Virus record (IMG/VR): IMGVR_UViG_3300021076_000245
Location: 1 to 45,021 of that record
Origin: a virus
Length of the DNA stretch: 45,021 nucleotides
Strand: one strand, 5' to 3'
The notes under the pieces were generated by a model. The model searched no databases. It saw only the letters and a list, made by a program, of their open reading frames with translations, and had not been told where the DNA came from. Shown here piece by piece: positions 202 through 45,021 of the stretch. How positions within the stretch are numbered: position 1 is the stretch's first letter; each line of letters starts with the position of its first letter. Made by a program: the position numbers and the translations under genes.

Positions 202-930
202 TTACAGCAAACCAATTAGAGCAGATGTTTCTTGAGCCTTAGCTAGTACCGTTTCCAGTTTGCGCAGCAAGAATGACGGAACACGATCAGAGGCGTCAGG
301 AAGAAGCACAACGGCTTTGTGAAGCTCTCTTGCAGTCGCTGGGCTCATTGCCGGTACAGGTGCAGCAAGCTTTGTAAGACCGTCGATGTACATCGCTATG
401 TTGATTTCCGCTTGGCCAAGCTGATCGGAGGTTAGAGCATCAATGTCTGTAGTTCCGAACACTTGATTGGCCAGCTTGATCAACAGTAATGGTGCAAGCT
501 CCATTTCGCAGTATGCGCGAATTGCCGCTGCATTAATTTTGTCACCAGATGCAGTAGACCTACTCCAAGCGACAATAGAAGATGCTTCTAATGATTTAGG
601 AGAAAGCATCATGGTAGTAAACGTGTTGTTATGTGCTTCGTAGTGTTGTTCGACTTCCTCCCGAATGTAGGCTTCCTGCAAGGAATGCAAGTAATTGATC
701 ACAGTCTCTTGCAAGATCGCAGGTTCAATACTGCAAGTGATATTCGGGATTACTGCAAACACGGATGGAATTTTGGGATTAGCAATCTTAGTAACCTTGT
801 CGATTGTCTCTTTCCACCAAAGCTTAATTCCACGTGTATTGTTTGCATGTGCGCCAATACTATCGGTTTTCTCGTTATACAAGCGCACGAAAATCGAATT
901 GCTGTTAGGCGCGAGATTGAAATCGGACAT
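202..930 (-). CDS. Unknown protein, probably abundant, single-gene unit
   Basis: I do not recognise this 242-residue protein. The start ATG at 930 is preceded by an excellent AAGGAG site. It has no signal peptide or membrane segment. The C-terminal two thirds look helical, with a stretch near residues 110-155 (SLEASSIVAWSRSTASGDKI, then an AIRAYCEMEL segment) and a final leucine-rich helix. It is transcribed alone, leftward from the control region, and ends at the strong terminator at 93-139. It uses more G/C-ending codons than most neighbours, a feature shared with 7149-7841. I infer high early expression. A weak similarity in layout to the C-terminal half of the 7149-7841 product suggests a common fold, but this is only an eye-level alignment. 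Confidence 0.85.
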   Translation of the reverse strand: MSDFNLAPNSNSIFVRLYNEKTDSIGAHANNTRGIKLWWKETIDKVTKIANPKIPSVFAVIPNITCSIEPAILQETVINYLHSLQEAYIREEVEQHYEAHNNTFTTMMLSPKSLEASSIVAWSRSTASGDKINAAAIRAYCEMELAPLLLIKLANQVFGTTDIDALTSDQLGQAEINIAMYIDGLTKLAAPVPAMSPATARELHKAVVLLPDASDRVPSFLLRKLETVLAKAQETSALIGLL

Positions 931-1420
931 GATTATAGACTCCTTAGATAGGTTGATTAACAGTTCAAAGAGCTAGCGCGGTAGACAGCGCTGATGGTTC
1001 GGCTAGCATTGCAATTTCTATGCCTTTGAGAAAAGCTAGGTAAACTGCCATTCTTAGCTCACCAATGTCGATAGGCTTTACATTTGCTGCCGATTGCTGC
1101 CGCTTTTTTAAGCAAATCGCTTCTGACTATCGCTATCGCTTTGATTTCATTGAGAGTTTATGTAAGGTTTGTGTAAGATTCTTCAACACTCAAATACAAT
1201 GCAATCGCAGTGCGATACTAATGCTAATGCAACTAATTCGCAGTCGCAGTGCTAATGCTGATTTCATGATGCTAGCTAATACTAAAGTATAACCTTAGGT
1301 TAAAACCGTTTGCAATTTTGTTGATTTGTACAAATAGCAGACAGAGACAAGATACGAGATAACAATTGCTAACAACATAGATTTCGCCCCCTTTGTTTTA
1401 CAAATCTCTAAAGTCCCCCT

Positions 1421-1460
1421 GTATACGTCTGTATACTACTGTATACGTATGTATACTATG
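1421..1460 (+). repeat. Phased GTATAC iteron array, left
   Basis: Four consecutive 10-bp units begin with the palindrome GTATAC at 1421, 1431, 1441 and 1451. The 10-bp period places every copy on the same face of the helix, as in operators or origin iterons bound by a multimeric protein. Elsewhere in the window GTATAC occurs only as scattered single copies. Confidence 0.8.
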
Positions 1461-1764
1461 TATCCATGTAGCACTTTCCGATCGCCCCTATTTTCGCCCC
1501 CCTCTTGGCTCGTTTTCTTACCTATCTATGCTAGCATTCTATATGACTAACTATCCTGCTATCACTGTGTAGGGTACTTTTACTTTTTTATTACATTTTT
1601 AACAAAAGCACCCCCTAAAAAACACCGTGGATATATAGTTGAGATAACATAAGGAAAAATAGCAAGTACCATAGCTACAATGTAACCAACAGTGCTAGCA
1701 TAGGTTATCCAACGAAAGAGGCCAAAAAGAAGGCAAAATAAGGAGCAAACCAAAAATGCTACAC

Positions 1765-1799
1765 GTATACAAAGTATACAAACGTACACAAACGTATAC
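1765..1799 (-). repeat. Phased GTATAC iteron array, right (inverted)
   Basis: GTATAC occurs at 1765, 1774 and 1794, and the one-base variant GTACAC at 1784, so the spacing is 9, 10 and 10 bp. Read on the minus strand the units are of the form GTATACGTTT, which matches the plus-strand units of the left array. The two arrays are therefore inverted and bracket about 300 bp. Confidence 0.75.
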
Positions 1800-1893
1800 A
1801 AATGGGGTCTTTAAGCATGTACTAACTCACAGTAATGCAATCAGTCTAACTAACAAATACTTCATAGTACACAGTATAAAATGCATTTTTCAC

Positions 1894-1922
1894 TTGACAA
1901 ATCCCTAAGAATGTGTCGTAAT
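1894..1922 (+). promoter_or_regulatory. Sigma70-like promoter for the rightward arm
   Basis: TTGACA at 1894-1899 is followed after 17 bp by CGTAAT at 1917-1922, a weak -10. Directly upstream is GCATTTTTC, which is also found at the same place upstream of the promoter at 7072-7100. The shared upstream element supports a real promoter. It would start transcription about 70 bp before the gene at 1997. Confidence 0.6.
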
Positions 1923-2259: not shown

Positions 2260-3411
2260 ATGAAATGCTTATGCCCTAAATCCGCAATCTTCTATGAAGT
2301 GCCAGAATTTGGTAACTTCGGTAATCGTTTTACTCTTCATGTAGAACATCCAATTTTCTCACTTACCACAGATCAGTTACTGTCCCAGATAAAACGTTGG
2401 GCAGATGGTAACACGAATGCAAAAGAGAACCGTCTTCTCTTTCTCGCATTGCTGAATAATCTAGAAGATGAATATGGCAAAATCATCACTTTTAGAACAG
2501 CAGCAATTCCAGCTAATGGATTAATTCAACAATACATGCAACGAATGTTTATGTTTGTTGGATGGTATACTGATATTCATACACCGTCAATGCCAATGCC
2601 GCATTATGTAGTAGATACATATAATTGCAATCTTTCTAACATTAAGTTATGGCTTGAAAGTTGGGAAGAGAAGCGAGAGGAATGGCAAACTAAAGCAATT
2701 GTCGGCGCTAATCTGCGAGCAGAGAAAGCGAAACGTGCTGAAGAAGTAATCAAAGTTATTAAGCATGTTACCAAAACTCGTAGCGATTGGCGTAAGTTAG
2801 CTATATGGGCAATGGATGCAGCACTAGTACCAGAGTCATATCGCAAAGAGTGGATATCAATTATCTGCACTGATATCAACAGCTTTAACATCTACCAACT
2901 ATCTGGCCGTACATTAGCTAAGATCCTGTATCACATGGAAAGCTATTTAGATATCTACAACGATAATCTAATGGCTCATGCAATTCTAACAAGAATTCGC
3001 GAATTAAAAGAGCGCAATGCTCTTGGCTTTAGTTTTGCTGTTGGAATGCAATCTGGCATTTCTCCTGATGCGCTTGTTAATGCAGCTAAGACACCATTCA
3101 CAATCGTTGAACCAACTAAGTTGGAAACGATAAATCGCGCAATTCTTGCTCAAAATGCTCCCACAACAATGCCTATTCGTAGCAACTATGCTACGCTAAC
3201 TGAATTCATCAAAGCGAAAGCTAAGTATCAGCTTCGCATAGCAGCAATCGCTAGAGACGAAGAAGCGAAACAACAACAAATGCAAGCAAGACAGGAAGAG
3301 ATATTGCATGAAAATATGAATAAAGAAGACGCTGCATTACTCGACAATGAGGAAGCGCAGTTACAATTGCAATTGGGAAACGGTCATACTATTAGCACAG
3401 AGGTGGAATAA
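2260..3411 (+). CDS. Conserved-looking phage protein upstream of helicase, function unknown
   Basis: The protein has 383 residues. The N-terminus carries two cysteines (Cys3, Cys5), an EVPEFG segment and an HPIF segment, an arrangement I associate loosely with replication-region proteins of podoviruses. Residues about 130-175 and 325-365 are charged, helical and possibly coiled coil, and the C-terminus is Gln/Glu rich. No catalytic motif is visible. It is followed at once by 3413 and then the helicase gene, so a role in replication or helicase loading is possible, but this is inference from position. Confidence 0.85.
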   Translation: MKCLCPKSAIFYEVPEFGNFGNRFTLHVEHPIFSLTTDQLLSQIKRWADGNTNAKENRLLFLALLNNLEDEYGKIITFRTAAIPANGLIQQYMQRMFMFVGWYTDIHTPSMPMPHYVVDTYNCNLSNIKLWLESWEEKREEWQTKAIVGANLRAEKAKRAEEVIKVIKHVTKTRSDWRKLAIWAMDAALVPESYRKEWISIICTDINSFNIYQLSGRTLAKILYHMESYLDIYNDNLMAHAILTRIRELKERNALGFSFAVGMQSGISPDALVNAAKTPFTIVEPTKLETINRAILAQNAPTTMPIRSNYATLTEFIKAKAKYQLRIAAIARDEEAKQQQMQARQEEILHENMNKEDAALLDNEEAQLQLQLGNGHTISTEVE

Positions 3412-3821: not shown

Positions 3822-6014
3822 ATGACAATTTCTAAAGAAAGATTCGACGCATTGCTTGCAAGAGCAAAAGCTACAATCGCGAAACAGCAAGCGGAAGCGC
3901 TTGAAGCAATGCAGGTTATGATAGAGGATAAACAGGTCAATGATGTATCCTTTGAAGGAACTGGAATTTCTGACGCCAAATTGGCAAGTGGAGATGACAC
4001 TACAATTGCAAGCGCTGTCGAAATTATTAAAGACATCGCAAGTAACATTGGATCAAGTTCAAAGCAACATTCACACGAAGAAACTGGAGCGAAAGTTATC
4101 GGAGTTGCAAGAGATGATATCATTCTTAATGAAAAGCAACAATACTTTCACGATCAAGTAATCGCCGGTAAAGATTTGGTGCTTATCGGAGCAGCGGGAA
4201 CCGGCAAAACTACTAGCATTCGTAAAACAACTAGATCTCTCATAGACTTAGAGCGATTGCCTAAGCTAACTACATCAACTAAATGGTTGCGTGTAGGAGT
4301 TCCTGGGGCTGCAATCATTTCATACACTCGCAAAGCAGTTAATAACATTCGTCATGCAGTAATCGATGAATTGAAACCGCATGTAGTAACAGTTCACAAG
4401 CTACTTGAATTTGCTCCTATATTCTACGAGATAGAAGATGCAAATTCTGGCAAAATGAAAACTACGATGCGCTTCGAGCCAAGTAGAAATGAAAACAATC
4501 CACTTCCTAGTGAGCTAATTCTTCTTATTCATGAAGAAGCCTCTATGGAGTCAGTGGATTTGTATGCGACTCTCGAAGCTGCGATGCCACATGCTCACCA
4601 AGAAGTGTTTCTAGGAGATATTCAGCAATTGCCACCAATCTTTGGAGCTGCAATTCTTGGCTTCAAAATGCTTGCGCTTGATGTAATTGAGCTTACAGAG
4701 ATCTATCGCCAAGCAGCTAATTCACCAATCATTAATCTTGCTTGGGCAATTCTACAAGGCGATGCAAATCGCTTTAGTTCAGTTACGAAATCATTTAAAA
4801 AGTTTCATCCAATTCTAAAAAAAGAAGTTACTCGTATCGCGGTTCCATCACTTGCAGAATTTGAAGCGGATAACGAATATGGTAAATTAGTGTTTCAACC
4901 ATGGCAAAAATCTCTCAAAGAAGATACTGCTATGGCAACTATTGTTAAACAGTTTTGCACATGGGATAAAGAAGGATATTACAATTCAGAAGAGGATATA
5001 ATTCTTACACCCTTTAACAAAGCTTTTGGCACAATAGAGCTTAACAAAGGGATAATGCAATATCTTGGAGTTAAGCGTAGTGCTACAGTTTATGAAGTAA
5101 TTGCAGGATTTAATAAACATTATCTTGCAATTGGGGATCGCATTTTATATGACAAAGAGGATGCATTCATAGTTGGCATTCGTAGAAATCCAATTTACTT
5201 TGGTGCTGCTCCAATGCCAGCTACTACCTATCTCGATCGTTGGGGAGGCTATAGAAGCATTGACAACGAAGAGATGCAAAAAGCAGAAACTGAAGAAGCC
5301 GCATTTCAGCTTGAAGCAATGGAAGAGATGCTTAACAGTGCTGCTCAAAGCGTTGATGATAGAGTAAATGCAGCCAGTCATATCGTTACAGTGCGTTTCT
5401 CAACTAGCGATGATACCCTAGACCTTAACGATGCAGCACAGATAAATGCATTGCTTGGTGGTTATGCTATTACAGTGCATAAAGCACAAGGATGCGAATG
5501 GGATAATGTATTCTTTGTGTTGCATCAATCACAAGCAATGATGATTCAGCGAGAATTGCTATACACAGCAGTAACTCGCGCAAAGCGGTTTCTTCACATC
5601 ATATGTGAAACTAATTCATTCTACAAAGGTGTACGAAGCCAAAAGATCAAAGGCAATACATTACAAGAAAAAGCAGACGAATTTAAAGGTAAACTTGAAA
5701 GCAATGCTGGCAATGGCGACGCTTATCAAGACTTAGTGCATAAGAATGGCGGAGACTTTGACGTGTTCAAGTATAGTAGCGTTAATGCTAAAGGTCGCAA
5801 CGAAGTGAGATACGAAGATGAAAACATTCCTACAGAAGTTGCAACAGATGCTGAAACGAGTACATCGCAAATCGCTGAGAAAGAAGTTGCGCAGACACCC
5901 GCAAATGATGGACAAGCTGCTGTTTCACAATATCAAGATACGCCAGCAGAAGACATAATTGCAAAAGCCAAAGCGCGACTTGCAGAAATCAAAGCTAAGA
6001 GAGGACTACGATAA
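3822..6014 (+). CDS. SF1B DNA helicase, Dda/RecD-like
   Basis: This 730-residue ATP-dependent DNA helicase shows all main superfamily 1B motifs. Motif I is GAAGTGKTT near residue 121. Motif II is IHEEAS near 235. Motif III is GDIQQLPP near 266. The arginine finger region is EIYRQA near 290. Motif V is ITVHKAQGCEWD near 550, and motif VI is YTAVTRAKR near 577. The layout resembles phage Dda and the RecD/TraA family, which move 5' to 3' on single-stranded DNA. Residues 1-100 are an extra helical, low-complexity extension and the last 100 are charged and probably disordered. It probably unwinds or remodels phage DNA in replication or recombination. The next gene starts on the base after its stop, indicating translational coupling. 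Confidence 0.93.
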   Translation: MTISKERFDALLARAKATIAKQQAEALEAMQVMIEDKQVNDVSFEGTGISDAKLASGDDTTIASAVEIIKDIASNIGSSSKQHSHEETGAKVIGVARDDIILNEKQQYFHDQVIAGKDLVLIGAAGTGKTTSIRKTTRSLIDLERLPKLTTSTKWLRVGVPGAAIISYTRKAVNNIRHAVIDELKPHVVTVHKLLEFAPIFYEIEDANSGKMKTTMRFEPSRNENNPLPSELILLIHEEASMESVDLYATLEAAMPHAHQEVFLGDIQQLPPIFGAAILGFKMLALDVIELTEIYRQAANSPIINLAWAILQGDANRFSSVTKSFKKFHPILKKEVTRIAVPSLAEFEADNEYGKLVFQPWQKSLKEDTAMATIVKQFCTWDKEGYYNSEEDIILTPFNKAFGTIELNKGIMQYLGVKRSATVYEVIAGFNKHYLAIGDRILYDKEDAFIVGIRRNPIYFGAAPMPATTYLDRWGGYRSIDNEEMQKAETEEAAFQLEAMEEMLNSAAQSVDDRVNAASHIVTVRFSTSDDTLDLNDAAQINALLGGYAITVHKAQGCEWDNVFFVLHQSQAMMIQRELLYTAVTRAKRFLHIICETNSFYKGVRSQKIKGNTLQEKADEFKGKLESNAGNGDAYQDLVHKNGGDFDVFKYSSVNAKGRNEVRYEDENIPTEVATDAETSTSQIAEKEVAQTPANDGQAAVSQYQDTPAEDIIAKAKARLAEIKAKRGLR

Positions 6015-43810: not shown

Positions 43811-44392
43811 TTAGTGACCAACATCTGAAATTTCAACTGCGTAGAATTTATCACCAGTAGTTGCACCGATGATATTGATCTGATCAGTGATCACAACAAT
43901 TCCACCATTGCAATAAAATGTCTGGTTGGTAGGAATCGGAAATCCAACTCCAGTCGTGGTAGGAGCAGTTGTTCCAAACGCAATGTAAAGAGTATCAGTT
44001 GCAGAATTGGTTATGATACAATTTTTGCGATTTGGATTCTGCGTAAATAGCGTCTGCGATGTTCCACCAGCAGCGATAGTAATTGCTGATGCCACAGTCG
44101 TAGTTCCCTGCAATGGATCAACTTCAATTGCTTTTGCTTCACTGAAGAACAATGAAAACGCAATCAAAGCCGCAGCAATTGATCCGAAAAAGTTAACTTT
44201 GCTGCTGCTCGTAGTTTTAGCTGCACACACAGCAACTTTCAAGGTTGCATGATCAACAGGAGCAGCTTGTGCATTTAGCACAGTTAGAGTTGCAGGATGC
44301 GGATTCAAGCACTGTTGATCGCTAGTGTGAGTAGGAGAATTAGCACTGTAGTAACGTCCCTGAGCATCACAATACATATTAGTACCACTCAT
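43811..44392 (-). CDS. Protein with internal membrane or signal helix and beta domain
   Basis: The 193-residue protein has three parts. Residues 1-40 share a pattern with the upstream gene 44405-44644 (TNxYxDxxG, SDQ and NPxP). Residues about 66-87 are hydrophobic (VNFFGSIAAALIAFSLFFSE followed by AKA), like a membrane helix with a signal-peptidase site. The C-terminal 100 residues are beta-rich with FTQNPNRKNCIITNSATDTL, similar in style to small phage virion sandwich domains. AAGGAG precedes the start. I cannot assign a function. Confidence 0.72.
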   Translation of the reverse strand: MSGTNMYCDAQGRYYSANSPTHTSDQQCLNPHPATLTVLNAQAAPVDHATLKVAVCAAKTTSSSKVNFFGSIAAALIAFSLFFSEAKAIEVDPLQGTTTVASAITIAAGGTSQTLFTQNPNRKNCIITNSATDTLYIAFGTTAPTTTGVGFPIPTNQTFYCNGGIVVITDQINIIGATTGDKFYAVEISDVGH

Positions 44393-44943: not shown

Positions 44944-44983
44944 GCAATTGCGAGTGCGAGTTAGTTGCAGCTGCGATCGATGC
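44944..44983. repeat. First copy of imperfect direct repeat spanning the circle junction
   Basis: It begins GCAATTGCG, has GAGTTAGTTGCA and ends GATCGATGC. It matches 52-88 with a few differences. With the circle closed the two copies are about 74 bp apart, separated by a GCTTCG-rich stretch. Confidence 0.6.
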
Positions 44984-45021
44984 TTCGATGCTTCGCAGTT
45001 CCGCTGCTTCGCTGCCTGCAA
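44967..45021. repeat. Right copy of 55-bp terminal direct repeat
   Basis: Identical to 1-55. It is best explained as an overlap left by circular assembly. A true genome of about 44,966 bp would carry this sequence once. Confidence 0.9.

Follow-up and report, generated by a model that had tools for sequence, protein, structure and literature searches.

Locus Organization and Genomic Context

The IMG/VR virus record IMGVR_UViG_3300021076_000245 is complete, with a length of 45,021 bases, and the whole of it (hereafter “the window”) was analyzed. Bases 1–55 recur exactly at 44967–45021, and this 55-base end repeat probably reflects assembly of a circular contig with overlapping ends. The core genes (helicase, polymerase A, DUF3987 primase/helicase, exonuclease, Sak4-like protein, terminase, portal and capsid) are ~24–43% identical at the amino acid level to those of Polaromonas phage Tiera, Aeromonas phage P5, EBPR podovirus 3 and Pseudomonas phage PaMx41, and all five genomes have a common general gene order. 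The helicase shares ~31–37% amino acid identity with those of PaMx41-type podoviruses (Fredfastierviridae), indicating a distant relation.

Two short-repeat arrays sit in the gap between a leftward gene on one side and rightward early genes on the other. The leftward gene (c8; 202–930, minus strand) is a conserved flanking gene that encodes a candidate partner protein of 242 aa. On the plus strand, the first rightward ORF (1997–2233, 78 aa) matches no family. It is followed by c1 (2260–3411, 383 aa), a conserved early gene just before the helicase whose product is a candidate initiator or regulator. The RecD/Dda-like SF1 helicase itself (3822–6014, plus strand) served as the anchor for finding relatives. 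The c8 gene lies on the minus strand in the window and in six relatives (L010, L011, L012, L039, L085, and L086) and on the plus strand in the others. The genes around c8 hold their direction across relatives while c8 flips.

Two Mirrored Arrays of GTATAC Repeats

The left array (1420–1465, plus strand) comprises GTATAC units at 1421, 1431, 1441, and 1451 and a degraded unit, GTATCC, at 1460, giving steps of 10, 10, 10, and 9 bp. The right array (1765–1800, minus strand) is an inverted copy with GTATAC at 1765, 1774, and 1794 and GTACAC at 1784 (steps of 9, 10, and 10 bp). The initial annotation had described four GTATAC units at 10-bp steps from 1421 to 1451 and a second set from 1765 to 1794. 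All of these coordinates are right; the fifth left unit had been overlooked. A 9-bp step falls at the mirrored place in the two arrays (1451 to 1460 on the left, 1765 to 1774 on the right), and thus the arrays are mirror copies of one another, not just alike. The extended unit GTATACGTNT, which had been attributed to both arrays, is found in left units 1 and 3 only, in the right units at 1794 and 1765, and with a variant core at 1784; the remaining units do not carry it.

The arrays are real and lie far beyond chance. As had been claimed, their clustering is special: the window contains no other run of at least four identical 6-mers at a constant step of 6–12 bp, and 30 block shuffles produced none at all. 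GTATAC occurs 15 times in the window, compared with 5.7 ± 2.2 expected, and seven of the 15 fall within the 379 bp of the array locus.

The Arrays Are the Outer Ends of a Palindrome

The symmetry, which went unnoticed in the initial annotation, runs on inward from the arrays, so that they form the outer ends of an imperfect palindrome of ~390 bp (1415–1805, centered at ~1612–1621), a putative origin or early control region. Its nested arms have a nearly common center. The outer inverted repeat (1430–1509/1721–1800) is 80 nt long and 74% complementary. Further in, the 11-nt left arm CTATGCTAGCA (1526–1536) pairs with the right arm TGCTAGCATAG (1693–1703) at 100% complementarity, and the innermost inverted repeat spans 1570–1593/1650–1673. 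Near the center is an AT-rich tract (1575–1608; 29 of 34 positions, or 85%, are A/T), a candidate unwinding element.

Folded as single-stranded DNA, positions 1415–1805 reach −52.3 kcal/mol versus −29.0 ± 4.2 for shuffled sequences (z = −5.58) and pair from end to end; the folding energy is used here as a gauge of symmetry and carries no claim of a cruciform in the cell. Two near-identical 15-mers, TTTACAAATCTCTAA (1397–1411) and TTGACAAATCCCTAA (1894–1908), lie outside the palindrome, one on each side.

The Same Locus in Related Phages

Direct DNA searches and single-protein searches detected no close relative of the window phage. Relatives could be collected only with an alignment of five helicases, which recovered 80 related contigs; among the helicase-anchored loci, c1 is present in 75 and c8 in 49. 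An inverted pair of stepped arrays was identified in 28 of the 49 control regions (c8 to c1) versus none of 208 equal-length downstream segments from the same contigs; two of the 28 (L040 and L056) owe their hits to low-complexity TATCTA repeats and are to be discounted. The loci are related by descent, and within L020/L022 and within L010/L011 the two phages are near-identical, so the counts do not represent independent events. With a previous form of the test, no equal turned up among 40 dinucleotide shuffles of each region. The strict criterion failed in 21 of the 49 homologous regions. Several of these nonetheless keep inverted arms, though shorter ones, at the same place, among them perfect arms of 23 and 24 bases in L052 and L025. 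Many relatives thus carry inverted array pairs at the corresponding locus, where the initial annotation would have taken their absence as counting against it.

The repeated word and its spacing differ from lineage to lineage. Words stepped by 10 bp include TAGCACA (L010 and L011), AACTTC (L050), and CAAGGT (PaMx41, mostly 10 bp), and CTTGTG in L085 is stepped by 9–10 bp. An 8-bp step was found for TGCCA (several relatives), TTGACA (several), TATCCTA (L026 and L034), and GACTAA (L019 and L063), as well as for AGACYG in several relatives, which in L049 has a step of 7 bp. AATCATA in L018 is repeated every 6 bp. The initial annotation had described the arrays as helically phased; given steps of 10, 8, 7, and 6 bp, phasing is not the conserved feature. 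Since the word is replaced between lineages, the layout outlives the sequence. Judged from this comparison of sequences, what is conserved is the mirrored layout together with a TTGACA box at the right end (described below), and not the word or the step. Each of the two mirrored ends consists of 3–5 short repeats.

Among 24 control regions folded, the median z was −4.7 versus −1.45 for nearby control segments; the palindrome fold was absent in PaMx41 (z = −1.2) and L075 (z = −0.5). Seven cultured Jamesmcgillvirus genomes retain paired CAAGGT/ACCTTG arrays, so the feature is not an artifact of metagenome assembly, and in 119X, Neko, and 20Aug470 the left array is interrupted by a shared 23-bp insert.

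Other repeats were observed at or near this position. Upstream of c1 in L027 (1067–1343) there are at least 31 tandem copies of a 9-bp unit (ATAACTG...), and similar long runs with 9- and 12-bp steps occur in L061, L069, and L055. In Tiera (L004), the corresponding gap holds, instead of detectable arrays, a C-rich tandem duplication of ~72 bp (GTTCGTTATATCCCCGCGATCCCCCCACACCCC...) at ~43930–44075.

A Promoter Box at the Right End

A rightward sigma70-like promoter, TTGACA-N17-CGTAAT (1894–1922, plus strand), was identified 94 bp to the right of the window palindrome. The right-hand 15-mer TTGACAAATCCCTAA contains its −35 box. A leftward promoter-like sequence, TTGCAA-N18-TATACT (1286–1315, minus strand), is weak, and the number of such sequences is not above chance.

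In 24 of 31 loci, the right end of the palindrome has an exact TTGACA next to it, a second feature that the initial annotation had missed. Two placements were distinguished, in both of which the right-end positions of relatives are approximate, having been assigned by us from the arrays. Of the 25 loci with 7–8 bp steps, 19 have the box 27–65 bases inside the right end, which places the −10 element and the start within the right array. In the window (+94) and in L010 and L011 (+71 and +72), it is 71–94 bases outside, and in these three a 17-bp spacer leads to CGTAAT, GATAAT, or GACAAT.

Evidence Bearing on a Possible Replication Origin

Two hallmarks of iteron-type origins are present in the window, namely an array of repeated sites of a size suited to an initiator and an adjacent AT-rich tract, the one at 1575–1608. 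No DnaA-like box was found in the window palindrome; such boxes are a feature of many iteron-type origins, not of all. Two inverted perfect DnaA boxes (TTATCCACA ... TGTGGATAA) occur inside the palindrome of the close relatives L026 and L034, and none was detected in the other 29 regions scanned. A central element, GATACCCCcTAAATATACCGTAAGATG, lies in the middle of the palindrome in about a dozen relatives. A model of this element had its top match at the palindrome center of L010 and L011, which had been held out, and gave no match in the window.

In relatives with c8 on the plus strand, the silent-site GC skew (plus strand) is +0.16 for c8 and −0.41 for c1, and c8 exceeds c1 in 40 of 42 cases. 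With c8 on the minus strand, the values are +0.17 and −0.12, and c8 exceeds c1 in six of seven. Because this change of sign from c8 to c1 holds for both orientations of c8, gene direction alone hardly explains the switch. Leading strands are usually G-rich, and the sign in the relatives is opposite to this, so that the switch may instead reflect a terminus or an effect of codon usage. In the window, for which GC skew had been put forward as a check on the origin, the whole-window skew agrees with a switch near 2–3.7 kb, confounded by gene direction, and silent sites show no clear switch (c8 −0.07, c1 −0.09).

Search for the Binding Protein

No helix-turn-helix or ribbon-helix-helix regulator and no initiator was recognized among the window proteins scanned. 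The AlphaFold2 models of c8 and c1 are both confident (pLDDT 90.7 and 88.1, respectively). Fold searches returned nothing convincing for c1 against solved structures or for c8 against solved and viral structures, and family searches with the two proteins gave nothing above chance. Profile comparison of c8 with its PaMx41/Tiera neighbor was unsuccessful; for c1 and its counterpart in PaMx41, Tiera, and P5 it yielded a weak N-terminal match only. Comparing gene presence with array presence across loci, we found nothing below p = 0.05.

We also compared gene trees with motif labels. For c8, c1, the helicase, and the small terminase (TerS), 11 changes were needed in each case (23 loci), and none of them stands out as the binder. 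The c12 tree needed one change fewer, in its own subset only, and c12 is not singled out.

The arrays themselves offer a lead. In pSM19035 parS, a ribbon-helix-helix array, contiguous short units typically follow one another at a 7-bp heptad step and overlap promoters (PMC9499535). By analogy, the 6–10 bp steps and contiguous units reported here recall arrays of that kind.

Interpretation

The arrays are very probably specific protein-binding sites of some kind. The initial annotation had proposed sites for an oligomeric regulator or initiator; conservation of the arrays at the locus leaves this the best class of explanation, its element of helical phasing apart. More specifically, we see an even chance that they are cooperative binding arrays of a phage regulator or initiator at an early promoter and probable replication origin. 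A phage-encoded oligomeric DNA-binding protein would bind each array cooperatively and bring the two arrays together. Their pairing would open the AT-rich middle for replication and would also control the rightward early promoter, which overlaps the right array in most relatives with an 8-bp step. The recognition word would then diverge together with its binding protein. A broader and rather doubtful extension is that the element is a family-wide replication or immunity switch of fixed architecture, in which word and spacing have been repeatedly replaced. The resulting private codes of each lineage, read by a novel DNA-binding family, would limit cross-replication or superinfection.

It is possible, if somewhat unlikely, that replication has no part in the element, and that cooperative repressor or activator sites simply switch the early promoter or promoters, perhaps by looping. 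Sites that overlap or adjoin a promoter are what is expected of operators, and the box, which in 24 of 31 loci adjoins the right array or falls within it, agrees with this account, in which the divergent motifs would represent immunity specificities. The Jamesmcgillvirus phage Shea is maintained as an episome without integrating, colonies that carry it resist superinfection, and no lysogeny gene was found in it (PMC13348215); such persistence and resistance would need some repressor. In the 8-bp class, however, the left array follows the c8 stop, where it has neither a promoter nor a leftward gene to control; this speaks against a pair of simple operators. Moreover, a palindrome of 300–400 bp with inner inverted repeats of its own exceeds the needs of two operators.

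Less probable still is a packaging site, with the arrays binding a ring-shaped TerS and flanking a cleavage site, as in pacL-pacC-pacR of SPP1. Neighboring helix-turn-helix motifs on TerS rings are about one DNA turn apart (PMC4737164), a distance that the array spacing fits; in addition, the TerS gene is ~2–3 kb away and the ends of the PaMx41 record fall between its two arrays. Record ends vary among Jamesmcgillvirus records, however, and may be a matter of convention, and the ends of 30 near-complete contigs are scattered round the genome with a mild excess near the locus. TerS follows the motif no better than other genes do, and overlap with a promoter is not expected of a packaging site.

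A centromere-like partition site serving an episomal state and bound by a small ribbon-helix-helix protein is the least probable of these alternatives and in our view very improbable: 7-bp-step contiguous repeats over promoters are typical of pSM19035 parS (PMC9499535), the steps of 6–10 bp suit ribbon-helix-helix proteins, and Shea persists as an episome (PMC13348215), but the window proteins scanned include no ParA-, ParM-, or TubZ-like gene product and no ribbon-helix-helix protein.

Read as binding arrays at an early promoter and probable origin, the element provides a concrete candidate origin and early switch for a large, mostly uncultured family of podovirus-like phages. That the layout recurs with other words in dozens of distant relatives suggests a common switch with a changing recognition code, probably one that governs DNA replication and early genes. 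The dozens of paired motifs are a natural series from which the binding protein and its code may be deduced, and the cultured members 119X, PaP2, and PaMx41 make the hypothesis testable. Such a switch may also explain the episomal persistence of a member without recognized lysogeny genes.

Comparison with Known Systems

In the literature searched, neither these arrays nor the mirrored architecture were described, for PaMx41 and its kin included. Among the closest parallels are iteron-type origins (the phage lambda ori with its O protein, and iteron plasmids), which likewise place short direct repeats beside an AT-rich tract and early replication genes. Iterons are stepped by ~18–22 bp, as compared with 6–10 bp in the arrays described here. 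In contrast to iteron origins, the present element is a 300–400 bp palindrome that ends in mirror-image arrays on both sides and has no recognized initiator, and both motif and step are replaced between relatives.

Herpesvirus oriS and the SV40 ori have mirror-image initiator sites around an AT-rich center, as here, although the arrays are much further apart in this element, which belongs to a phage and has no sequence relation to either. The parS heptads of pSM19035 and parC of the R1 type, bound by ribbon-helix-helix proteins, likewise consist of contiguous short units at a fixed step over promoters; our element differs in having two arrays in a fixed mirror layout, ~210–340 bp apart, and no partition gene. 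In SPP1, again a phage, pacL-pacC-pacR has a functional center flanked by repeat boxes, but that site is at the small terminase gene, whereas these arrays adjoin early genes with a promoter box. A further counterpart is found in PaMx41, 119X, and PaP2 (Jamesmcgillvirus, Fredfastierviridae), in which inverted CAAGGT/ACCTTG arrays ~300 bp apart occupy the corresponding place, in a control region that differs from that of the window in its motif and its G-rich interior.
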